A stretch of 64,000 bases of DNA from Elusimicrobiota bacterium. GTDB lineage: Bacteria; Elusimicrobiota; Elusimicrobia; 2-02-FULL-39-32. The notes below the pieces were generated by a model, which saw nothing but the letters and a program-made list of their open reading frames with translations, searched no databases and was not told where the DNA came from. Shown one piece after another: positions 5,770 through 17,537 of the stretch (the stretch's first letter is position 1; each line of letters begins with the position of its first letter). The position numbers and the translations under genes were made by a program. The stretch lies in assembly GCA_016180425.1 (NCBI GenBank), contig JACPBF010000004.1, positions 62,001-126,000 on the forward strand. The letters are read 5' to 3'.

Positions 5770-6717
5770 TCAGAATTTTTTAGAGTAGCTGACGCGGTAG
5801 GCGTGACCTAAGTCGCCAAAAGGTACCCAGGCAAAATCAATCTCATTGTTTTTTAAGTTAAATCCTACCCCGGCGCTAAGGGAAGAAATGCCGCTTATAT
5901 CCGGGGTGTTCCTAGAGTTAAACCCGGCTCTGCCAGCCATGGAAAAATCTTGAGAAATTTTTTTCTTATATTCTATTCCAAGCCCCATGTTGGGATCATT
6001 GTCCCGTGGAAAGTTAATATCTAAAGCCAGGATAAAAGGATCGTTCACTCGATAGGAAGATCCAATTTTAAAGTTTAAGGGCAGGTGATCCAGTTCGTTT
6101 TTAAATTTAAAAGATGGCCCAATATTTTGAGCAGCGATTCCTACCCAGCATTTCTCAACCGGGCTCCAAAGAATTCCTAAATCTAAGGCGCCTGCGTAAG
6201 CGGTTTCAATGATTCTGGATTGGATCAGTTTAGCAGAAACTCCTAGACTAAATTCATTTTTTTCTTCCAGGAATTCCATTTCCAGAAGTTTCATTGCCCA
6301 GCCAATGCTTAAGGCAGTATGCGAGGGTTGGAATGTCCCCACATTGGTTCCAAATTCATCTGTTTGGTCAATTGAACCCGCGTTCAGGTATTGAATCCCT
6401 AATCCAAGGGTGCCAATTTTCCCAAAGCGTTTCGCGTAGGAAGCAAAATCGTAAAAGATTTCTTGCAAGTAAACCGCGTGCATTAATGAGAGAGAATGTT
6501 TTTCAACTTTATCTAATCCTGCGGGATTCCAATAGATGGAGTCAGAACCATCACTGACGGAAGAGTAAGCTTCACCCATTGCAATGGCTCTAGCGTTCAC
6601 TCCTAATTTTAAGAATTGAGCGCTGGTGGTCCCTACGAATCTTCTGCCAAAGGCATGAAGAACCCTAGGATTAAATCCTAAAATGTAAAGTAAGATCAAT
6701 GGTAATAATTTTCTCAT
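5770..6717 (-). CDS. PorV/PorQ-family outer-membrane beta-barrel protein
   Basis: The 315-residue protein has a signal peptide (MRKLLPLILLYILGFNPRVLHA) and the hallmark PorV/PorQ start GTTSAQFLKLGVNARAIAMGEAYSSVSDGSDSIYWNPAGL. The rest is an amphipathic strand pattern typical of a beta-barrel. In Bacteroidota, PorV is the shuttle that carries type IX secretion cargo from the translocon to the attachment machinery. Relatives occur in many phyla without proof of that role. Here it starts one base after the stop of a large fibronectin-III protein with a sorting-like C-terminus, and the two form an operon. The context makes cargo handling for that protein a reasonable inference. No SprA/PorT/GldK-type genes are in the window. 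Confidence 0.85.
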   Translation of the reverse strand: MRKLLPLILLYILGFNPRVLHAFGRRFVGTTSAQFLKLGVNARAIAMGEAYSSVSDGSDSIYWNPAGLDKVEKHSLSLMHAVYLQEIFYDFASYAKRFGKIGTLGLGIQYLNAGSIDQTDEFGTNVGTFQPSHTALSIGWAMKLLEMEFLEEKNEFSLGVSAKLIQSRIIETAYAGALDLGILWSPVEKCWVGIAAQNIGPSFKFKNELDHLPLNFKIGSSYRVNDPFILALDINFPRDNDPNMGLGIEYKKKISQDFSMAGRAGFNSRNTPDISGISSLSAGVGFNLKNNEIDFAWVPFGDLGHAYRVSYSKKF

Positions 6718-6718
6718 C

Positions 6719-9589
6719 TTATTTCTCTACTGCTATTTTCATTTTCTTTCTTGCATTGCCGATGCCTTCAATTAAGACAATATAAATGTCGCTTCCTACT
6801 TTTTCGCCGTAAGAATTTTTAGCGTCCCAGCGAATGGTTCCAGTAGAATCTGTTTTTAATTCCCGAACCAGCTCTCCAGCATAGGTATAAATTTTAATGC
6901 TGGCATGAGCAGTTAAATTCGTAAAGGTCATATCTGTTTGGCCTTTATGCAGACGTAAAGGGTTAGGATAGACTTGCGGGTGATCAATATCTGTGGATGG
7001 AGCCAGAGCCATTAATTGGAATTTGCTCAAGTGTTTTGTAGTCCCTGTAACTGTTTGTGAGGAATGGAGGATGACACTGGGAATAGTAAGCCATCTTTGA
7101 ACTGAATCTTCATAGCGGGTAATCACCAAAGTTTCCGGGTCAGTGCCTGTGATATCTTGACTGCGATATTGGAAAGTGATTTCAATTGGTTGAGAGGGTT
7201 GAATGTTTTTATTGGTATTTAATTCAAGACCTATTCCTAAAGCTTTTAATGTGGATGGAGCTCTTAAAGGGCTTTGACCAAACAAAGGAGATGCGAAAGA
7301 AGTAATCGGAGGAAATTGATCCAGAGCTTTTATTTCCATTTCTACATTTTCTTTCATGATATTAGGTGGAATTGAAGTTTTAAGTTTGCCTTGAGGCAGC
7401 TCTAGTCCGATTAAAAGCGTTTTAGTTCTTTCAGTAGAAAGTGTGGCTTTGGTAATTTGAGGAATTGAAGGATCCAAGTCAAAGGTAAAGGAGTTTAGAG
7501 AGATTTGAAAAATGTGGCTTCCTGAAGGTAAATCCATACTGATTCCGTCATGTTTCATGGGAATGGTTTGTGTGCTTGTGATTTGTAAAGAGTTGTTGGA
7601 TGCGACCATAGTTGTTTTTGAACCTATGGGCAGTTGGAGTTGAATCCCATTTGAATAAGAAACTCTAGCGGATTGTGTGGCAACAAAAATTTGCTCTGTT
7701 CTTCCATCTGAAAGAGTGTTGTTGGTAATGGTGATGCCAGGGTCTGCGGTGAGAGAGATGTCTCCTGAATCATCACTCTCATTGGATGTAATGATGGTTT
7801 CTGTTAGAAGAGTTTCGGTGCTTATAATATTACTGAAAGAAGTAGCCTTACCGTCGCTATTTTGCGCGCGCACTCTGAAATAAAAGGTTCCTCCTGGAGT
7901 TAAGTTTGAAACAGAAGTGGAAGATGGGGATGACAATAGGGAAAATGAAATTGGGGTTGAAATTTGGGAACTGAAATTATCTTTAGACTGGCTTATTTCA
8001 TGGAGGACCGTGGATGGATTAGAATTCTCGTTCCAAGAAAGCGTGACTTTTTTTCTTTTGACATTTATTAGAATCAAATTGTCAGGAGGAGCAGCGAGCG
8101 TATGGCTACTGATGGCAAAGGAATTTGTAGAACTTCCCATACTGTTAAAGGCAGCAATTCTTGCTTGAATAAATTGGTTTGGAGAAAGGCCTGTGAGGGA
8201 GAATGATGTGGTATTGGATGGCAGGGTCGCATAAAAACCGTTTGTAGAATTTAAGATTTTAAACCCTTCTTCATTTTCAGAGTTATCGCTCCAGGAAAAA
8301 GTAATGCTTGAAATCCCAATAGCTGTTACTTTAAAATTTCCAGGTCCAGCAGGCGTAAAGTTAGATGGTGATGTGATAGTAGAAATTTCTGAATTGAAAC
8401 CACTTAACTCCCCATTTTTGCTGAATGCAGCTGTTTTGAAGAAGTAAGCAGTGTTTGGAATGAGATCGGTAAATGTATTTTGTGTTGATGTAGTTAGTAG
8501 GGTTAAAAATGAGGAAAAATCATTTGCTGTTGAAATATAAAGTTCATAGGTTGTTGGAGGAATTAGAGGGTTGCCGTTGGTACCCCAGCTTACAGTAAAG
8601 GAAGTGCTATATACATTATTAAAAAAATTTGTGCCAGGAACTGCAGCGTAAGTGGTTGTAGAGTCGGTTACACTAATTGTCTGAGTGGATGCATTTTCTA
8701 CGCTGCCTAAGACTGCGGCTTGAAAGCTGTAAGCGGTTTGTGGATTTAGATCAGAAATTGTAAGGGTCGTATTTTCCCCTGAAACGCTGCTAATTAAAGA
8801 GTGAGTGACATTATAATTTCCATCAGAGCCAGTAGAAACCATAAGAGTTGTTCCAATGGGATTGCTGTTATTGCCTAAGATAATAGAAATGGAAGTTGAG
8901 AAGACTTTGAACCCTGTTAAAGTTGGCGGTCGCGCTAAAGTGGTGGTAGATGCAATAACGGTCGTTGCGGAACTAGAAAAATTTGTGAAGCCAGTTGCTC
9001 TAGCTTGAAAGGCATAGTTAGTGTTTGGGATCAATTCAGAAAGAACCAATGTGGTATTTGTGGCGATCGCTTCCCCGCTTGAGGTCAATGAGATATCAAA
9101 GTCTCCACTGCTTCCTGTAGAGATATCTAGAGTTAAAGAGGTGGCAGATCCAGAGATGCCTAAGAGGTTATTTAAACCACTGTGGAGATTAAATGAAGCT
9201 GAAGTAGTGAAGATTTGAAATTCAGTTAAACCTGGAGAGACTGGATAGGTGTAAGTGGACAAAGCAACGTAGTTTGAATCTGGGTCCACTGAAACTTTGA
9301 CAAATGTAGTATAGGAAGTATTAGGCTGTAGTTCGTAAAATGAGGTTGTGTGTTGATTTTTGCCGCTTGTTTTGGAAGAAACAATAGTTGAAAATCCAGG
9401 AACTGAGGAAAGGACTACCACATATGATTTCCCACCTTGATTTTGCCATTGCAGAGTAAGAGTATCTGAACTAATTAAAGTATGCCGAAGATTATCTACT
9501 GGCGCAGCATAGAGTTTCTGGCTGTAGGATAGGGTCAGTAGAGTTATCCCTGCCAATAAACAAAATAGAATTGAATTTAATTTTTTCAT
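6719..9589 (-). CDS. large secreted fibronectin type III protein with C-terminal sorting-like domain
   Basis: The 956-residue protein has a signal peptide (MKKLNSILFCLLAGITLLTLSYSQKLYA). About six fibronectin-III-like modules follow, roughly at residues 33-116, 117-215, 220-310, 315-405, 410-500 and 500-595, with recurring LxPNTxYxF strands. A less repetitive region (600-870) ends in a FlgD-Ig/T9SS type A-like domain starting VYPNPLRLHKGQ and ending in a basic KKMKIAVEK tail. That tail resembles the C-terminal signals of proteins exported through type IX secretion. It is probably a surface adhesin or matrix component; the ligand is unknown. Its leader carries a c-di-GMP-I riboswitch, so its expression should follow the second messenger that governs surface attachment. 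Confidence 0.85.
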   Translation of the reverse strand: MKKLNSILFCLLAGITLLTLSYSQKLYAAPVDNLRHTLISSDTLTLQWQNQGGKSYVVVLSSVPGFSTIVSSKTSGKNQHTTSFYELQPNTSYTTFVKVSVDPDSNYVALSTYTYPVSPGLTEFQIFTTSASFNLHSGLNNLLGISGSATSLTLDISTGSSGDFDISLTSSGEAIATNTTLVLSELIPNTNYAFQARATGFTNFSSSATTVIASTTTLARPPTLTGFKVFSTSISIILGNNSNPIGTTLMVSTGSDGNYNVTHSLISSVSGENTTLTISDLNPQTAYSFQAAVLGSVENASTQTISVTDSTTTYAAVPGTNFFNNVYSTSFTVSWGTNGNPLIPPTTYELYISTANDFSSFLTLLTTSTQNTFTDLIPNTAYFFKTAAFSKNGELSGFNSEISTITSPSNFTPAGPGNFKVTAIGISSITFSWSDNSENEEGFKILNSTNGFYATLPSNTTSFSLTGLSPNQFIQARIAAFNSMGSSTNSFAISSHTLAAPPDNLILINVKRKKVTLSWNENSNPSTVLHEISQSKDNFSSQISTPISFSLLSSPSSTSVSNLTPGGTFYFRVRAQNSDGKATSFSNIISTETLLTETIITSNESDDSGDISLTADPGITITNNTLSDGRTEQIFVATQSARVSYSNGIQLQLPIGSKTTMVASNNSLQITSTQTIPMKHDGISMDLPSGSHIFQISLNSFTFDLDPSIPQITKATLSTERTKTLLIGLELPQGKLKTSIPPNIMKENVEMEIKALDQFPPITSFASPLFGQSPLRAPSTLKALGIGLELNTNKNIQPSQPIEITFQYRSQDITGTDPETLVITRYEDSVQRWLTIPSVILHSSQTVTGTTKHLSKFQLMALAPSTDIDHPQVYPNPLRLHKGQTDMTFTNLTAHASIKIYTYAGELVRELKTDSTGTIRWDAKNSYGEKVGSDIYIVLIEGIGNARKKMKIAVEK

Positions 9590-9626: not shown

Positions 9627-9758
9627 AAGTTCGGAAGCTCGGCGGGCTTGGGGAGTAGAAATTGAGGAAGAATGTTAGAGTGGTGAATCCAACACTCAAT
9701 TCCCTTTAGCTCCGTGGTTTTGCGTCTCCGTCTTTCAACGGATTTGCTATTATCGTTT
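9627..9758 (-). ncRNA. cyclic-di-GMP-I riboswitch (GEMM-I)
   Basis: Read on the minus strand, the leader contains AGCAAATCCGTTGAAAGACG, GAGACGCAAAACCACGGAGC, TAAAGGG, and, near the 3' end, GCCGAGCTTCCGAA. These match the GEMM-I consensus in order: a GAAA-capped first hairpin (TCCGT/ACGGA), the invariant GACGCAAA linker, CCACGG with a CTAAAG tetraloop receptor, and the closing GCCGGGCTGCCGA-like strand. The second arm is about 30 bases longer than usual and can form an internal GAGTG/CACTC hairpin. The element begins at the predicted transcription start and ends about 40 bases before the ATG. I see no clear terminator after it, so control may act on translation. Confidence 0.88.
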
Positions 9759-10262: not shown

Positions 10263-10940
10263 TTACTGGCGTACAAATATTTTTTCCGCAATTTCTTTTT
10301 CTAAGGCAAGGGTAGTTTCGCCCGCTTCAATTACGTAAGTGGGAAAGGTCTGATGAAGGTTAAAAGGAGTTCCCGGAATCAGACCAAGGGAAAGGAGTTT
10401 ATGCAGGTCTGGATGGTTTTGCAGGATCAGATAGGCAATTTTCCCTTTTGAACCTGGCGTACATTTATCCAAGGATGTGATAATCGGCTCAATGGTTTCA
10501 GTTGCTTTTTCACAGCAATCCCCTTTTGGGATTAGGGAGCCATGGGGGCATTGCGTGGGGTGGCCTAGCAAAGTGCATATGGATTCTGCCACCTCCGTGG
10601 AAATAATATGTTCCAATTTACAGGCATTGGGATCAATCGCTTGAGAACTTAAAGCAAGTACGTCTGAAAGCAGCCGTTCTGCAAGACGATGTCGCCGGGT
10701 AATATCTTTTGCTAACCTTTCCCCTTCTTCCGTAAATAAAATTTTATTATTTTTTTCTTTGATGAGCTCTTTTGATATAAGGATTTTATAGATATTTTCA
10801 TGAACAGTCTCTTCTAAGAGAGGAAGAATGATTTCTAATCTATTTTCCATTAGTTCGGATTGGTGCCAAAGCGCTCCTAAGGCTTCTTCAATATCTTCTT
10901 GTTCAGTTGTGGGAAGCGGATATTTTTTTTCTGTTGTCAT
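10263..10940 (-). CDS. DtxR/MntR-family metal-dependent regulator
   Basis: This 225-residue protein has an N-terminal winged helix-turn-helix (about residues 12-75, with ENIYKILISKELIKEKNNKILFTEEGERLA). A metal-binding dimerisation domain follows (RRHRLAERLLSDVLAL, CKLEHIISTEVAESICTLLGHP, then CPHGSLIPKGDCC). The C-terminal SH3/FeoA-like domain includes LLSLGLIPGTPFNLHQTFPTYVIE. Family members repress iron or manganese uptake genes when the metal is plentiful. It lies 48 bases downstream of feoB on the same strand and is probably the last gene of the iron operon. No separate feoA is present; the FeoA-like domain here is part of the regulator. Iron rather than manganese is inferred from context. 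Confidence 0.88.
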   Translation of the reverse strand: MTTEKKYPLPTTEQEDIEEALGALWHQSELMENRLEIILPLLEETVHENIYKILISKELIKEKNNKILFTEEGERLAKDITRRHRLAERLLSDVLALSSQAIDPNACKLEHIISTEVAESICTLLGHPTQCPHGSLIPKGDCCEKATETIEPIITSLDKCTPGSKGKIAYLILQNHPDLHKLLSLGLIPGTPFNLHQTFPTYVIEAGETTLALEKEIAEKIFVRQ

Positions 10941-10988
10941 TTTTTGACCTCTATAAATTAAATCTATTTTTTTAAAGGCACGCTAATT

Positions 10989-12962
10989 TTAAATATGGAT
11001 CCAGCCGGCTTTAAAAATCCAATTCACTAAACCGCCAATACCTAAAGAAAAACTTAAAACAAATGCTGCAATGAGAAGAGTTGTTTTCAATCCTCTTTCT
11101 TTAATCGTTACAAAGAACTGCGCGATACAAGGCATAAAAAGGGTAATCACTACTAAGGCAACTGTAATTTGAGCTGCATTCATTAAACCATTTTGCGCGA
11201 GCATAAAAAATCCCGCGGCTCCATAATCCCGCCTTAAAAATCCAATAATAAAAGATTCAGTTGCTTTTTCTGGAAGGCCTAGAAAGTTCACGACAATGGG
11301 GTTTCCTAATTTTTTGATAATCCGAAGCAAACCGATTTTATCGGAGATAAAAAGCATAAAAGTTCCCAGCATAAACATGGGCACTGCTTCCCGCACATAC
11401 CAGATGAGGCGCGCCCGCACTTTTTTAAAAAGATTGTAAAATTGCGGTTTACGAATTGGGGGAATTTCCATTAAGAATGGGGATCGAATGCCGGGCAGGA
11501 GTTTAGAAGCTCCCCACCCGACTAGGATCATGGATCCAATCACAATCCCAAGCCAAATCGCAAATACTTTCCAGGAAAGCCCAGCAACCATTCCCAGCAT
11601 AGCTCCTAATTGCGCGGAACAGGGCACACTTAAAGTGAGAAGAAGGCAAACAATAATTTTTTCTTTTTTTGTGTCTAGAACTCTAGTAGTTAAAGTTGCC
11701 ATGGTATCGCAGCCAAGCCCTAAAATCATGGGCAACACAGCTTTACCGTTTAAACCCATGATGCGGAAAATTCTATCTAGCATGATCGCAAGGCGAGGAA
11801 GGTATCCAGAGTCTTCCAAGAATCCAAAGAAAAGAAAAAAACAGGTTACAATCGGAAAGATTAAGGCTAAGGCGTATGTGATCGCCATGGTGAATAAGCC
11901 ATAAGGGCCAATGATCATCTCCTGAATAAATTTTATTGGAATTAAAATTTCCACAATTTTAGTTACTGCTGGATTTAAAATTTTGTTAAAGAGCCCTTCT
12001 TCCATGAGCGCTACTAAATATTGGGCTCCAAATACTCCGACAAATTCATACATGAAAAAAAGTGCTAGCGCTACAAATAAATAGCCTGGCCATGGCTGCA
12101 TGGCCCATTTTCCAATTTTTTGTATCCAGGAAGAATGGATTTGGCCGGTTAATTGAGTGACTTGCGCTCTGATTTCTCCTGCTTTTTGGTGCCTTGAGTC
12201 TAGAGTGAGGAGACTGATGGGTCGCACAAAACGCTTGCGCACCATTTCAGAGCGATCTAAACATTGTTGAAGGGGGGATAAAAGAGATTTGCCCAAAAAA
12301 TGACTGAGAGGGATTGTAATAGAAGAGTCCCCATAGAGAAATGTTTCAGCGATAAATTCTTTTGCAGGGTGTGGGGGTAAAAGCAAAGTAAGAGACTCTA
12401 TTGCCTGTTTAATTTCAGGAAGGAGATTGACTGTTACGGTTGGAATCTGCGCTTTAGAAATTGCGCGCCTTAGGTCGCTCATCCCTTCCCCTGTAATGCC
12501 CACAGTTTCAATCACTGGAATTCCTAAAATTTTAGAAAGAAGTTTAGTTTCGATTTCAATGCCCCTTTCTCTAGCCTCATCGCTGATATTTAAAGCTAAA
12601 ACCATGGGGATTTTTAAGAGAGCAAGTTCTAAGGTAAGAAGAATAGTTCTGTTCAAATTTTTTGCATCAGCTACTTGTAAGATGATTTGGGGTCTTTCTT
12701 CTAGGAGGAGATCTCTAGTGACTTTTTCATCTTCTGACTTTGGGTAAAGGGAGAGAATTCCAGGGGTATCTATGATTTGGATCTGCTGCCCCATAAACCA
12801 TCCGCTTCCTCTAGAAACATCCACAGTTGTTCCCGGATAATTTGAGACAGTGACATAGCGTCCAGTTAATCTGCCAAAAAGTACAGATTTACCCACATTT
12901 GGGTTTCCAACCAAAACAATGGATTGGCTGGCAACGACTTTATCTAAGGTTGTTTCATGCAT
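10989..12962 (-). CDS. feoB: ferrous iron transporter FeoB
   Basis: FeoB imports Fe(II) through the inner membrane and has an N-terminal G domain. The G1 motif GNPNVGKS, the YPGTTVD switch I region and DTPGILSLYP (G3) are visible in the first 90 residues. The membrane part contains the two Gate-like blocks, including CFFLFFGFLEDSGYLPRLA, LPMILGLGCDTMATLTTR, SVPCSAQLGAM and FIIGFLRRDYGAAGFF. An upstream TTG at 12974 would add four residues. ATG 12962 has GGAG six bases before it and is the better start, giving 657 aa. This is shorter than E. coli FeoB (773) but within the family range. It overlaps the end of apbE, indicating co-translation. Confidence 0.95.
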   Translation of the reverse strand: MHETTLDKVVASQSIVLVGNPNVGKSVLFGRLTGRYVTVSNYPGTTVDVSRGSGWFMGQQIQIIDTPGILSLYPKSEDEKVTRDLLLEERPQIILQVADAKNLNRTILLTLELALLKIPMVLALNISDEARERGIEIETKLLSKILGIPVIETVGITGEGMSDLRRAISKAQIPTVTVNLLPEIKQAIESLTLLLPPHPAKEFIAETFLYGDSSITIPLSHFLGKSLLSPLQQCLDRSEMVRKRFVRPISLLTLDSRHQKAGEIRAQVTQLTGQIHSSWIQKIGKWAMQPWPGYLFVALALFFMYEFVGVFGAQYLVALMEEGLFNKILNPAVTKIVEILIPIKFIQEMIIGPYGLFTMAITYALALIFPIVTCFFLFFGFLEDSGYLPRLAIMLDRIFRIMGLNGKAVLPMILGLGCDTMATLTTRVLDTKKEKIIVCLLLTLSVPCSAQLGAMLGMVAGLSWKVFAIWLGIVIGSMILVGWGASKLLPGIRSPFLMEIPPIRKPQFYNLFKKVRARLIWYVREAVPMFMLGTFMLFISDKIGLLRIIKKLGNPIVVNFLGLPEKATESFIIGFLRRDYGAAGFFMLAQNGLMNAAQITVALVVITLFMPCIAQFFVTIKERGLKTTLLIAAFVLSFSLGIGGLVNWIFKAGWIHI

Positions 12963-14053
12963 ATTTTTCTCCAAAGCCGCGATTCGAAAATCTTAAGATT
13001 TTTATTAGATTCTTTATTACGGTATAAAATATAGACCGCTTCTTGTTTAAGCGACTCGCTAAATTCTTTTCCTTTTTTTAAACCCATAACAAAGATCGCT
13101 GTTGAAAGTATGTCGGCATCTAAGGCATTCTTGCCTATTACAGTGACGCTTTCAATCTCATTGTTTACAGGCCAGCCTGTTTGAGGATTTAAAATATGAG
13201 ATAATTTTATTTTTTTTCCATCTTGAGAGAGCGCAGTGATAAATCTTTCATAATTAGCAGTGGTAGAAATTGCGTAAGATTTTGAATTTTTTTTAATCTT
13301 AAAAGCCTGCCAACTTTTTTCAGGATTTAAGGGATTCTTAATGGAAAATTTTTTTTCGCAAGGGGTTTTACACCAGTATAAAATTTCTCCGCCAAAGTTT
13401 AAAGTTGCTGAATTAATTTTAAGATTCGTTATTTTTTCCAAAGTTTTATCCAAAGCATAGCCTTTACCAACACCGCCTGTGTCTAGTCCCATGCCGGTTT
13501 TAAGAAAGCGAAAGGTTTTAGCTGCGGTTGAAAATTCTATATTTTTATAATTCACTTTTTCTTTTTCTCCCGCCACAAGTTCTGGTTCAGGCAGAACTTT
13601 TAGCTCTCTTTCTCTTAGTTTCCAGATTTTTGTTAAAGGTTCAATGGTAATGTCAAAAGCCCCATTTGTCTTATCCATTAGCGGCATGGTTTGAGCAAGT
13701 AAATCAATCACTTTTTCATGAACTGGAACGCTTTCCAGCCCAGCTTCTTTGTTAATTTTTGAAATTTCAGAACTATCCTTATAGTTTGAAAGAAGAGCAT
13801 CCAGTTCTTCAGTTTGAGTAAGCGCGGATTCCATGGCTCTCTCTCCATCTATTTTCGAATCTGTTTCCAGTTCAATTTGTAACAAAGTTCCCATTACATA
13901 ACTCATTTTTGACAATTCAGATGATAAGAGAAAACAGGGGACGTTAAAGAAAAATAGGGTTTGAAGGGCAATAAATTTTAAGTTTTTTATTAACCATTTT
14001 TGAGAGATTTTAAAAGTGGTTTTTTTTCTAAACGTCATAAGAAGTTTATCCAA
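12944..14053 (-). CDS. apbE: FAD:protein FMN transferase ApbE
   Basis: ApbE transfers FMN from FAD onto a threonine or serine of target proteins in the periplasm. After a basic N-terminus and a hydrophobic export segment (about residues 27-44), the family motifs appear: MSYVMGTLLQIEL, FDITIEPLTKIW, GMGLDTGGVGKGYALDK, TLNFGGEI, SHILNPQTGWPV and DADILSTAIFVMG. It overlaps the upstream PepSY-type gene by 8 bases and feoB at its other end. The likely flavinylation target is the FMN-binding protein at 14851-15501, two genes upstream in the same operon. This arrangement is known for flavin-based extracytosolic electron-transfer systems; its use for ferric reduction here is inferred from feoB and the Fur boxes. 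Confidence 0.93.
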   Translation of the reverse strand: MDKLLMTFRKKTTFKISQKWLIKNLKFIALQTLFFFNVPCFLLSSELSKMSYVMGTLLQIELETDSKIDGERAMESALTQTEELDALLSNYKDSSEISKINKEAGLESVPVHEKVIDLLAQTMPLMDKTNGAFDITIEPLTKIWKLRERELKVLPEPELVAGEKEKVNYKNIEFSTAAKTFRFLKTGMGLDTGGVGKGYALDKTLEKITNLKINSATLNFGGEILYWCKTPCEKKFSIKNPLNPEKSWQAFKIKKNSKSYAISTTANYERFITALSQDGKKIKLSHILNPQTGWPVNNEIESVTVIGKNALDADILSTAIFVMGLKKGKEFSESLKQEAVYILYRNKESNKNLKIFESRLWRKICMKQP

Positions 14054-14708
14054 CTTTTCTGCTGATATTCCATAAAATGAGTCCGCTAATAATTAAGATC
14101 AAAAGAGCAACTGCGGAAAAATCATAAACCCAGACAAAAGCTGGTCCAAAGAAGTAGCCATTATGTAAAGTCAATATGAGGCGCATTAAAGGCGTTTTAG
14201 TTTTATCAAAATAGGTTTGGTTCCATTTTTTTCCCTGATCTTTAGAGAGTATCCATCCATGGGAGGTGAGGAGAGCTATTTCTCCTTTCCTGCCAATTGA
14301 AAGTTTTTTTAATTCAATCCCTTCAGATTGAGCATCAAAAGGAAGTTCAATTCTATCCCAGATTTTACCCCCATCCAGTGAAAAAATAATTTTTCCCCAT
14401 TTTTCCAAAACATAGATTTTTTTAGAGTCTTGCGGTGAAAAAACAATATCCACTACTTCCTGTGGAGGATAAAGCATGGACACCTCATTCCAATTTTCTC
14501 CAGCGTTTTCTGAAAAATAAAGCCCCTCTTTTTTTCCGCAATAGATTCTTTCACTTTTTTTTGGATCTAAGGCTATGGTCTCAAGAATGTTTCCTTGAAT
14601 TTTTTTAGGATGATTTAAGAGCACCCCGGTCACTAAGAGCATAATTAGAAACAGGGCGCTAGAAACCCCGAAGATATTATGAATTTTTTTCCACCAGATT
14701 TTATTCAT
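14046..14708 (-). CDS. PepSY-type membrane protein with periplasmic Asp-box (BNR-like) repeats
   Basis: This 220-residue protein has two clear membrane segments: residues about 11-31 (HNIFGVSSALFLIMLLVTGVLL, the classic PepSY-associated first helix) and about 190-212 (VWVYDFSAVALLILIISGLILW). Between them is a periplasmic domain with three Asp-box-like motifs, FSENAGENW, FSLDGGKIWD and LSKDQGKKWN, the pattern of sialidase/BNR or YCF48-like beta-propeller blades. PepSY-type helices recur in flavin-dependent reductases. It overlaps apbE and lies downstream of the FMN-binding protein, so it probably anchors or passes electrons in that system. No heme-ligand histidine array that I can defend is visible, and the electron carrier is unknown. 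Confidence 0.65.
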   Translation of the reverse strand: MNKIWWKKIHNIFGVSSALFLIMLLVTGVLLNHPKKIQGNILETIALDPKKSERIYCGKKEGLYFSENAGENWNEVSMLYPPQEVVDIVFSPQDSKKIYVLEKWGKIIFSLDGGKIWDRIELPFDAQSEGIELKKLSIGRKGEIALLTSHGWILSKDQGKKWNQTYFDKTKTPLMRLILTLHNGYFFGPAFVWVYDFSAVALLILIISGLILWNISRKVG

Positions 14709-14850
14709 CTCTCACACTTTTTAAAAATATTTCAATTCTAAAATAAAACTAATGATCTATCCTAATAGATTGGAAAAAAGAACTATATTTTTCATCTTGA
14801 CTTTCGCCATCAGCATTAGTTCCGGGGTTAAAACCCAGAACCTACAAGAT
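14709..14850 (-). other. 142-base gap inside the iron operon
   Basis: This is the only long gap in the operon. On the minus strand GTTCTGGG and CCCCGGAAC can form an eight-pair hairpin (one G-U pair) just after the FMN-binding gene. It is not followed by a U-run, so it looks more like a processing or stability hairpin than a terminator. Confidence 0.35.
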
Positions 14851-15501
14851 TTATTTTTTAATATAGAGTTCATCCAGAATAATTAATACTTTTTTAATGC
14901 CTGCGGTCATGGCTTGCACAGACATGGTTGCTCCGGTTATATTAAGAATGTCTCTATTAATCCGCAGAGAATCTTTTGCTGATTTTTTACGGAATTGTCT
15001 TAAGAACCTTTGTCTCCTGACTTCCGCGCCCACAGGTTCTCGATAGATCATCACCTCTACTCTTTCAATCTGACCTTTATCCGATACTTTAACAATAAAA
15101 GTAATAGGTTTAAATTTACCAATCTCTTCTGTAATAACAGCATAACCTTTGATGTTTCCATTTTCTAAGCCTTTATAAACAGTGATGTCAGGTTCCTGAA
15201 GAATCCAGCCTAAACGCGCTTCGATTCTATTTTTTTCGCTTGTTTTAAAGGCATGAATCTCTTTTACAATCTCTTGATCTTGGGAAAACACACTTTTAAG
15301 AGCTGTTTGTTCTGTAAGATAGACTTGTTCTACGAAATCTGGATAGTCCTGATCTTTTAAACTTTCTGCTCTTAAATTAAGGGCTCCAAATAAAAATAAC
15401 AGTCCAATATTGATGATCAAGCGCCGCTCCAAGCAAGGCGCCTTGCTTGGAGCGGTTTTTTCATGCAAGCAATCCAAGGAGGGATCTTGCTTGCTTTTCA
15501 T
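14851..15501 (-). CDS. exported FMN-binding (flavinylated) electron-transfer protein
   Basis: This 216-residue protein has a hydrophobic export segment at about residues 28-45 (LIINIGLLFLFGALNLRA), preceded by an unusual 27-residue cysteine- and lysine-containing extension. The C-terminal half is an FMN_bind domain (YKGLENGNIKGYAVI, KVSDKGQIERVEVMIYREP). It ends with the flavinylation motif NITGATMS, in which the threonine of GAT-x-S is the expected FMN attachment site. ApbE, two genes downstream, would supply the FMN. The start six bases after the porin stop is chosen because the RR before the hydrophobic segment suits a signal peptide. The extension is partly encoded by two strong palindromes, so it may be a late insertion. 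Confidence 0.85.
   Translation of the reverse strand: MKSKQDPSLDCLHEKTAPSKAPCLERRLIINIGLLFLFGALNLRAESLKDQDYPDFVEQVYLTEQTALKSVFSQDQEIVKEIHAFKTSEKNRIEARLGWILQEPDITVYKGLENGNIKGYAVITEEIGKFKPITFIVKVSDKGQIERVEVMIYREPVGAEVRRQRFLRQFRKKSAKDSLRINRDILNITGATMSVQAMTAGIKKVLIILDELYIKK
15424..15494. repeat. two adjacent palindromes inside the FMN-binding gene
   Basis: A perfect 32-base palindrome (15424-15455) is made of CCGCTCCAAGCAAGGC and its exact reverse complement with no spacer. On the plus strand six Ts follow immediately (15456-15461), as in an intrinsic terminator antisense to the gene. Next to it GCAAGCAA (15465-15472) pairs with TTGCTTGC (15487-15494) around 14 bases. Together they encode most of the protein's odd N-terminal extension. 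Confidence 0.8.
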
Positions 15502-15507
15502 GATCCG

Positions 15508-16701
15508 TTAGAAGTATGTTGCAAATCCTGCAACGACCGCATCATTATCTTTTTTGGTGCGCAATAGATCTTCATAGTTGATTTGGTAATCTATTTTAAA
15601 GACAGTTTGTTCTACCGGCCTAAAATTAAGTCCAAAAGTAAGTCTTTGAGAGCTGTTATTTATTTGAGTAGAAGTTTGGTTATTAAGATCTAAATCAATA
15701 TGGTCCCATCGCACTACTCCTGTAAATACAGATCCTTTACGCACAGCGTCATCTAAAAAGTGAACATTTAGTTGAGCGTAATAACCATCCATTCTGCCTG
15801 GAATAGTGGTATGGGTCGTGGTAGTTCTTGCTATGTCCGCATTTCCATACTCACCTAAAAATTCTATCGCTTTCCACTGAAATCCCCAGTCCAACGCATA
15901 GACATTGAGACTTTCTTGTCCAGCATCGTCCCATTTTCCTGAATGCGCGGAAACTCCAATTTCAGTTCCAAGGAATGGCGAGAATGCCACTCTGCCTGTC
16001 ATTGCGATATTTTCATTGTTATCTCCTGTTCCATTAACTTTACTGCGGGCATTTCTTAAGCCATTGGTACTTGAAATATTCGCGCTTTTGTTAGATCCAC
16101 CATTAAATCCTTGAGTAAGGTAAAATTGATAATCTAATTTTAAGGGATCCATTGGATAAACAGTTCCAAAAAATCCGGCTCCTGGCTCAAAAAAAGTGGA
16201 GGGCAGGATCATCCGGCTGACTTGTGGGCGATCATTTAAATCATTGATTGGAGAGTCATGGATGAGATTAAATTTTCCTAGAGGAATGAGTACCAACCCT
16301 CCTCTAAACGCAAGCGCTTCCCCTGCTAGTTCATAATCTAATACTGCAAATTCTAATTTAGCATCTCCCGCATCTTTATCCGTGGCTCCGCCATGCTCAA
16401 ACTCTATTTCTGTTGCAAAACGAAGTCCAGGAGCAATATCCCCGTAAATAAATGGAACCATACGAAGGACTTCAAATTTTTGTTTTCCGTCTTGTTTAGA
16501 ACGGTATTCAAAATCAGCATATCCTCCTACATAAGTGCCATGTCCCATTTTTCTCCATACAGGTTTGCTATACAGCCCTTGGCTAATAGGTCCTGTAATC
16601 TCACCTCTCTTGTCTGTGCTTCTTTCTTCTTCTGCAAAAATAGCTGGTGGAATTAAAAGCCCCATCCAAGCTAAGAGAACCAATGATGTTATTTTTTTCA
16701 T
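15508..16701 (-). CDS. outer-membrane porin (phosphate-selective porin-like)
   Basis: The 397-residue protein has a signal peptide (MKKITSLVLLAWMGLLIPPAIFAEE). Alternating hydrophobic strands with many aromatic girdle residues follow, ending in VVAGFATYF with a terminal phenylalanine, the usual signal for insertion by BAM. Segments such as YGDIAPGLRFATEIEFEHGG, GGLVLIPLGKFNLIHDSP and FGLNFRPVEQTVFKIDYQINYED resemble OprP/OprO-type porins. No TonB box or plug domain is seen, so it is a diffusion porin rather than a siderophore receptor. It is the second gene of the Fur-box-bearing iron operon, 6 bases before the FMN-binding gene. Passage of iron species is inferred from that context only. Confidence 0.82.
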   Translation of the reverse strand: MKKITSLVLLAWMGLLIPPAIFAEEERSTDKRGEITGPISQGLYSKPVWRKMGHGTYVGGYADFEYRSKQDGKQKFEVLRMVPFIYGDIAPGLRFATEIEFEHGGATDKDAGDAKLEFAVLDYELAGEALAFRGGLVLIPLGKFNLIHDSPINDLNDRPQVSRMILPSTFFEPGAGFFGTVYPMDPLKLDYQFYLTQGFNGGSNKSANISSTNGLRNARSKVNGTGDNNENIAMTGRVAFSPFLGTEIGVSAHSGKWDDAGQESLNVYALDWGFQWKAIEFLGEYGNADIARTTTTHTTIPGRMDGYYAQLNVHFLDDAVRKGSVFTGVVRWDHIDLDLNNQTSTQINNSSQRLTFGLNFRPVEQTVFKIDYQINYEDLLRTKKDNDAVVAGFATYF

Positions 16702-16721
16702 TTTATTTCTTCCTTCCTTAT

Positions 16722-16934
16722 TTATTGGCTTTGGGTTGCGCGTTTTTCACCAGCCCTGGCCCAAGATGAGTCTGGACTTAAAAGTCCTTTGCTCTTTAAA
16801 AATTCAATCAAATCTGTGAAACATATCGTTTCAAGCCGTTTACACCGCTTGCATTTAATTTCAAGCCCTTCATTAATCAGCATGGCAAGCAATTGCCCGC
16901 AGGGACATCGCTTTTGATAAGAAGGCTTTTCCAT
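16722..16934 (-). CDS. small Com-like zinc-ribbon protein
   Basis: The protein has two CxC/CxxC knuckles, KRCPCGQLLAMLINEGLEIKCKRCKRLE. This is the arrangement of the phage Mu Com translational regulator family and related short zinc ribbons. ATG 16934 gives 70 residues. A TTG at 16964 would add ten, but those bases are the Fur box, so I prefer 16934. It opens the iron operon, 20 bases before the porin. No strong Shine-Dalgarno is visible. Function here is unknown; a regulatory RNA-binding role is suggested only by family resemblance. Confidence 0.65.
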   Translation of the reverse strand: MEKPSYQKRCPCGQLLAMLINEGLEIKCKRCKRLETICFTDLIEFLKSKGLLSPDSSWARAGEKRATQSQ

Positions 16935-16947
16935 TATTTGTTTTATA

Positions 16948-16964
16948 TTGAGACAAAATCTCAA
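16948..16964 (-). promoter_or_regulatory. Fur box in front of the iron operon
   Basis: TTGAGACAAAATCTCAA is a 6-5-6 inverted repeat with the same half-sites as the box upstream of fur (17492-17508). It lies between fur and the Com-like gene, next to the fur stop codon. A repressor bound here would control an internal promoter for the downstream genes. I see TATAAA right after the box but no clear -35. Confidence 0.75.
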
Positions 16965-17402
16965 TTAATCCATCTTATTGCATTTTTTGCAGCGGCCAAA
17001 AATTTCATGCCGATGCCAAAGCGGTTTAAACAAGAATTTTTTAGAAATTTCATCTTGAATTTTTTCAATCGTGGCGTTGGAAAACTCAAGCACACCGCTG
17101 CATTCCACGCAAATCATGTGATCGTGGTGCGGCCTTGCAAATTTATGTTCATAGGCAAGTCTGCCATCCGCAAATTGGATTTTATCTGCGAACCCAGCGT
17201 TTTCTAAGAGATGCAGGGTGCGGAAGACTGTGGCTCTGCCGATGTTTGCATCTTTCTTATTCAGGTCCCGATAAATATCTTCCGGGGTCACATGTTTTCT
17301 TGCTTTGAGCAGGTAATCTAAAATATCTTTTCTTTGTTTTGTAACTTTCAGTCCCTTTGAATTCAGGAGCTGTTCAAAAACTTTATGCGGCTCGCTTTTC
17401 AT
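16965..17402 (-). CDS. fur: ferric uptake regulator family protein
   Basis: This 145-residue metalloregulator has an N-terminal winged helix (KGLKVTKQRKDILDYLLKARKHVTPEDIYRDLNKKDANIGRATVFRTLHLLENAGF). Its C-terminal metal-binding dimerisation domain includes HKFARPHHDHMICVECSGVLEF and HRHEIFGRCKKC, with the two CxxC pairs of a structural zinc site. Fur, PerR and Zur share this fold. Fur is favoured because its own promoter carries a TTGAGAATCAGTCTCAA operator, a typical Fur-box sequence, and iron uptake genes follow. It stops one base from the second Fur box, and read-through into the iron operon is possible. Confidence 0.92.
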   Translation of the reverse strand: MKSEPHKVFEQLLNSKGLKVTKQRKDILDYLLKARKHVTPEDIYRDLNKKDANIGRATVFRTLHLLENAGFADKIQFADGRLAYEHKFARPHHDHMICVECSGVLEFSNATIEKIQDEISKKFLFKPLWHRHEIFGRCKKCNKMD

Positions 17403-17491
17403 TGGTGTTTTCCTTTATCGGAACCCGAGACCCTTTTTTCTATAGGCGCGGGGACTCTTTTTATTTTTACCGCTTTCAATCACAAATGATA

Positions 17492-17537
17492 TTGAGAATC
17501 AGTCTCAATTATATATTTCCTTGCGCGTGCTTGTCAA
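17492..17537 (-). promoter_or_regulatory. autoregulated fur promoter with Fur box
   Basis: On the minus strand TTGACA (17537-17532) and TATAAT (17513-17508) are both perfect matches to consensus, 18 bases apart. The operator TTGAGAATCAGTCTCAA (plus strand 17492-17508) abuts the -10 and covers the start site, so bound Fur would block transcription of its own gene. Confidence 0.85.

Follow-up and report, generated by a model that had tools for sequence, protein, structure and literature searches.

A Fur-boxed operon of an Elusimicrobiota bacterium links a porin and a flavinylation module to FeoB and may serve TonB-independent, reductive iron assimilation

In this work we analysed a window of 64 kb (64,000 nucleotides) from the genome of a little-studied environmental bacterium of the phylum Elusimicrobiota (2.6 Mb in 43 contigs, with an estimated completeness of about 98%). 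A previous sequence-only reading of this DNA had described eight adjacent same-strand genes running from fur to a DtxR-type regulator, and all eight were recovered in their places on the minus strand: fur, a small zinc-ribbon open reading frame (ORF), a porin gene, an FMN_bind gene, a PepSY_TM gene, apbE, feoB and dtxR-feoA. The operon is closely packed, with overlaps between the PepSY gene and apbE and between apbE and feoB, the exception being a gap of 142 nt between the FMN_bind and PepSY genes. This spacer (14709-14850) is about 130 nt longer than in the sister genome G001, where it measures about 12 nt. The genes and the associated sequence features are as follows:

17508-17537, minus strand: sigma-70 promoter TTGACA-N18-TATAAT heading the fur-led operon (sequence match, 12 of 12 consensus positions)
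17491-17509, no strand: Fur box 1, ATTGAGA-ATCAG-TCTCAAT, abutting the -10 element (exact match; position conserved in six genomes)
16965-17402, minus strand: fur, ferric uptake regulator, 145 aa (PF01475, E 5e-35; HHDH and two CxxC motifs conserved)
16947-16965, no strand: Fur box 2, ATTGAGA-CAAAA-TCTCAAT, right after the fur stop and ahead of the remaining operon (exact match)
16722-16964, minus strand: small Com-like zinc-ribbon ORF (CxC...CxxC), accessory (no Pfam or NCBIfam family)
15508-16701, minus strand: outer-membrane porin-like beta-barrel, 397 aa, with signal peptide and C-terminal F (weak matches of homologues to PF07396 Porin_O_P; FMN_bind neighbour across the class)
15426-15453, minus strand: 28-bp perfect palindrome (RNA hairpin, 14-bp stem) at the porin/FMN_bind junction (fold z -5.75)
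14851-15501, minus strand: secreted FMN_bind (RnfG/NqrC-like) flavoprotein with the motif NITGATMS (PF04205, E 5e-8)
14046-14708, minus strand: PepSY_TM protein of two helices whose extracytoplasmic domain is BNR/Ycf48-like with three blades (PF03929, E 2.7e-15; also Sortilin/PSII_BNR)
12944-14053, minus strand: ApbE, FAD:protein FMN transferase (PF02424, E 3e-64)
10989-12974, minus strand: FeoB, ferrous iron transporter, 661 aa (TIGR00437, 379 bits)
10263-10940, minus strand: DtxR/MntR-type regulator with a C-terminal FeoA domain (PF02742, E 8e-26; PF04023, E 2e-11)

The presence of ApbE and FeoB, as named in the sequence-only reading, is confirmed. ApbE scores 217 bits against PF02424 (cut-off 25.6), matches 7esa by phmmer (E 6e-39), has an N-terminal hydrophobic segment (25-43) as secretion signal and conserves the motifs GG(I/V)GKG, H(I/L)(L/I)(N/D)PxTG and ADxxSTA-type. 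FeoB has its G domain and membrane domain at full length, covering positions 1-594 of the 594 in TIGR00437 (cut-off 315.65 bits); the genome has one such full-length protein, its other FeoB_N matches being far weaker and resembling other GTPases. The operon holds no separate feoA, and the FeoA domain forms instead the C-terminus of the DtxR protein; the regulator had been correctly typed, as its PF02742 match shows, but this domain had gone unreported. The small second ORF, which we take to resemble the Com zinc ribbon, encodes 80 aa from a TTG or 70 aa from an ATG at 16934, and has homologues in G006 and G008, its N-terminal half being deleted in G001. Elsewhere in the window, a c-di-GMP-I riboswitch (9630-9758, minus strand; Rfam RF01051, 62 bits) lies directly upstream of a gene for a 956-aa surface-like protein with fibronectin type III domains (6719-9589), followed by one for a PorV/PorQ-family protein (5770-6717); judging by this arrangement, control of a putative secreted adhesin by c-di-GMP is probable at that locus.

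Zero-mismatch copies of TTGAGA-N5-TCTCAA occur in the 64-kb window only at the two listed Fur boxes, which are two of the seven copies in the whole genome (2.6 Mb). The classical Fur box TGATAATNATTATCA shows no enrichment in the window, the recurring form at fur being TTGAGA-N5-TCTCAA. In six family genomes a promoter of the form TTGACA-N17/18-TATAAT (11-12 of 12 positions) stands directly ahead of the box upstream of fur, the relatives with this architecture being G001, G002, G003, G006 and G008. Fur box 2 also follows fur in G001, G002, G003 and G006 (shuffle-test p of about 0.005 or less in each), and was not found after fur in G008. The shared Fur boxes previously proposed are thus two exact copies, both footprinted phylogenetically in relatives from the family. 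Since box 1 lies at 17491-17509 and the promoter ends at 17508, bound Fur would cover the -10/start region, and a conserved box that overlaps or abuts the promoter places the operon among putative members of a Fur regulon. The conserved boxes are direct sequence evidence for a predicted autoregulation of fur and for a putative Fur site before the downstream genes. No Fur regulon of the whole genome could be defined by the box alone, as the exact sites inspected elsewhere in the genome lie within or near unrelated genes, with no recognisable iron genes among them.

The conservation of the locus was surveyed across the class Elusimicrobia, in which the relatives are metagenome assemblies, one of them of the same genus (Elusimicrobia bacterium RIFCSPLOWO2_02_FULL_39_32); a wider contig scan used one sequence and gave four close relatives. 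Conserved gene order, which the sequence-only reading had set as a test, was borne out in the family wherever the assembly allows: the order fur, porin, FMN_bind, PepSY, ApbE, FeoB, DtxR of family f1 was found in G001, G003 and G006, and G002 is consistent with it across two contigs, while the contig of G004 starts within the 3' end of fur and that of G008 stops inside feoB. PepSY and ApbE look fused in G008, and ApbE looks split in G006, but both appearances are artefacts caused by N runs in these assemblies. Of 13 loci read from further families of the class, 12 have the FMN_bind gene adjoining a homologous porin gene (the exception is L051), with ApbE also adjacent in most and Fur recognised nearby in five. 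PepSY_TM was found in 13 of the 98 class genomes, chiefly in the source family, and FeoB is widespread in the class; outside the family, where both could be located, feoB lies on a different contig from the module (e.g., G010, G013, G020, G091). What had been called a fusion of the module with FeoB and the porin is therefore operon linkage only, with feoB unlinked outside the family. From this distribution, and not from a tree, porin-FMN_bind-ApbE looks like the older core, to which PepSY and FeoB would be family-level additions; as the core occurs in other families without PepSY and unlinked to feoB, it need not act through either. The genes beside the core in those families (redoxin, ThyX, HemQ-like, cyclophilin) showed no consistent partner; in G010 (L047:8744-12806) the order ApbE-porin-FMN_bind is followed by a 165-aa uncharacterised ORF, a CbiX-like gene, ThyX and a chlorite dismutase/HemQ-family gene. 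In G075 (L054:7129-10131) a two-segment PepSY_TM protein without a BNR match adjoins a TonB-dependent receptor, which suggests that other Elusimicrobia pair the PepSY_TM family with TonB uptake instead.

The earlier assignment of a porin holds for a porin-like barrel, in that four of the 18 porins in the homologue set match PF07396 Porin_O_P weakly, but the protein itself has no direct Pfam match. Its AlphaFold (AF2) model (pLDDT 36) was too poor for use, and a porin profile run against PDB chains returned nothing useful. The flavinylation site NITGATMS reported for the FMN_bind protein is present and gives the exported FMN_bind domain an SGAT-type motif that includes the acceptor Thr; the homologues carry a (T/S/A)GA(T/S)-type motif, with one TGSS in L045, and the structural matches are to RnfG (9eri/7zc6). 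At the porin/FMN_bind junction the listed hairpin is joined by a second one at about 15455-15490 (minus strand). The stem in G001 is longer (z -10.8), and the stem differences between G000 and G001 are compensatory. Neither hairpin has a T-run on the coding strand, and they may thus serve mRNA processing or differential expression. Judged by the hairpin position, the FMN_bind gene probably starts with the TTG (15420) and not with the ATG (15501).

The description of a PepSY-type protein needs amending, as the match to PF03929 PepSY_TM stands but there is no PepSY domain: the match is split, with its two halves flanking an insert that matches Sortilin/Ycf48 propellers. PF16357 is also matched (E 1.3e-11), so that a PF03929/PF16357 protein stands beside ApbE and FMN_bind, as in the PepSY-like flavinylation systems. 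The hydrophobic segments (12-30 and 197-215) fall within the two long helices (3-32 and 189-219) of the AlphaFold (AF2) model (pLDDT 77), which has approximately three blades, these being confident; Foldseek matched the model to BNR/GH74/Ycf48 propellers over about 140-155 columns. H10, H33 and H182 are invariant in an alignment with five relatives. At least four helices are described for the characterised PepSY_TM reductases and for proteins related to them, and FoxB has axially paired His on both sides of the membrane (PMC13038864). With two helices per chain the protein could fill an equal role only as a dimer, in which two chains would supply four helices and six blades; both dimer and heme are conjecture. 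Homodimers have precedents in FezC and MsrQ, as modelled (PMC10979944).

ApbE, FMN_bind and PepSY_TM each occur once in the genome, and a lone ApbE with a lone FMN_bind gene makes the product of the latter the obvious ApbE substrate among the candidates considered, which were FMN_bind proteins. As the sole FMN_bind gene is that of the operon, neither an RnfG nor an NqrC subunit was found. A search for TonB-dependent receptor barrels, which was positive in the E. coli, Caulobacter and Bacteroides controls, detected none in the genome, and this adds weight to the view that iron enters through the porin. The genome also encodes ALAD, a marker of heme synthesis, and a Complex I-type subunit, making heme and an electron-transport chain plausible.

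We consider it probable that Fur represses the operon and that its genes serve a reductive assimilation of iron that is independent of TonB. With falling iron, Fur would leave the promoter-abutting box and the operon would be transcribed. The porin would admit Fe(III)/Fe(II), inorganic or bound by weak chelators, to the periplasm, where the FMN_bind protein, on which ApbE is strongly predicted to load covalent FMN, would reduce Fe(III) or hold iron ferrous. Electrons would be sent outward by the PepSY_TM protein, probably as a heme-carrying dimer fed by the quinone pool. FeoB, as expected from its family, would import Fe(II), and the DtxR-FeoA protein may act as cytosolic metal sensor and second regulator. 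The complete pathway seen here by the sequence-only reading, in which Fe(III) is admitted and reduced and Fe(II) imported, is one that we infer.

The porin-FMN_bind-ApbE loci of class relatives that have no feoB nearby also fit a reading in which the genes are clustered as a regulon and form no pathway: Fur would control the porin and FeoB, which serve the uptake of Fe(II), and would separately induce a flavin electron carrier that reduces a non-iron substrate, since flavins stand in for iron-based carriers during iron shortage; such an iron-sparing role has been proposed for flavinylation (PMC8238504). We regard this as rather unlikely, given that the direct neighbour of the porin across the class is FMN_bind and not feoB, and that PepSY, apbE and feoB overlap or almost touch in the source family. 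Still less likely is an extracellular reduction, in which porin and flavoprotein would be an electron outlet of the outer membrane to iron minerals or shuttles, with FeoB taking up the Fe(II) that diffuses back; their tight class-wide pairing has a layout like that of porin-cytochrome conduits, but the flavoprotein is small and single-flavin, without a multi-flavin domain, the porin is like ordinary Porin_O_P barrels, and Fur control suggests assimilation and not respiration. A reading in which copper or a further metal is reduced in place of iron, by analogy with CrpH, a PepSY_TM protein linked to copper for which this has been proposed (PMC13038864), is very improbable in an operon without copper genes whose Fur boxes, FeoB and DtxR-FeoA indicate iron.

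The proposed reductive assimilation of iron by the operon can be compared with several known systems. The PepSY-like flavinylation systems defined by Meheust et al. (2021), which are Fur-repressed in Shewanella and Caulobacter and linked to the ferrous transporter VIT1, likewise bring together ApbE, an extracytosolic flavin carrier and a PF03929 protein, with Fur control and, in some clusters, a ferrous transporter (PMC8238504). The operon differs from them in having FMN_bind and not DUF2271/DUF4198, FeoB and not VIT1, a porin and not a TonB receptor, and a PepSY_TM protein that has a BNR insert and two helices where three transmembrane helices are typical; DUF2271/DUF4198, frequent but not obligatory in those systems, have no match in the operon, whose flavinylation candidate is FMN_bind. 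The main text of that study mentions neither FeoB nor a porin (PMC8238504). In Bradyrhizobium reduction by FsrB is followed by import through FeoAB, and the reductase for inorganic iron is stated to be unknown (PMC10760861). FsrB (PMC10760861) and FoxB (PMC13038864) are membrane proteins of the PepSY family that reduce their substrates in the periplasm ahead of FeoB, and the operon is predicted to share this order of steps. FsrB and FoxB act on siderophore substrates delivered through outer-membrane receptors, are larger, and have PepSY domains, four heme-ligand His and no described flavinylated partner; the PepSY_TM protein of the operon lacks a PepSY domain; it has two helices, and three of its His are invariant. 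The operon also resembles the Fur regulon of Geobacter and Desulfuromonas, with its fur2-feoB1-R operon and its Fur-boxed porins, including psp, which is weakly like PF07396, and porin-feoA-feoA-feoB2 (Rodionov 2004), though those operons name no ApbE, FMN_bind or PepSY (PMC545781). RnfG and NqrC share with the FMN_bind protein their fold and an SGAT-type flavinylation site; unlike them, the protein of the operon is stand-alone and secreted.

Our literature searches found no paper that joins FeoB with ApbE/FMN_bind in one system. Published work already covers Fur-controlled clusters of the PepSY-like flavinylation type that contain ferrous transporters (PMC8238504), Fur-boxed porins with feo and the fur-feoB-R operon (PMC545781), and reduction in the periplasm with import through FeoB after it (PMC10760861). 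With such precedents for the parts and for the concept, the originality is less than the sequence-only reading implied, and lies in a new arrangement of known modules, with altered components, that is conserved in the family. A bolder and rather doubtful extension is that the class-wide porin-flavoprotein unit is a single device for iron reduction and entry that replaces TonB-dependent uptake, and that in the source family it has been wired to FeoB and supplemented with a half-propeller PepSY_TM donor dimerised to a four-helix heme protein.

The operon extends the links between flavinylation and iron to FeoB and to the Elusimicrobiota, and offers a PepSY_TM architecture in which a BNR half-propeller replaces the PepSY domain. 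Little is understood of ferric iron acquisition in diderm bacteria that lack TonB receptors. Here candidates for entry, flavin loading, reduction, import and regulation share one switch, in a genome where a TonB route was not detected, and the pathway may therefore be rebuilt from a handful of genes.
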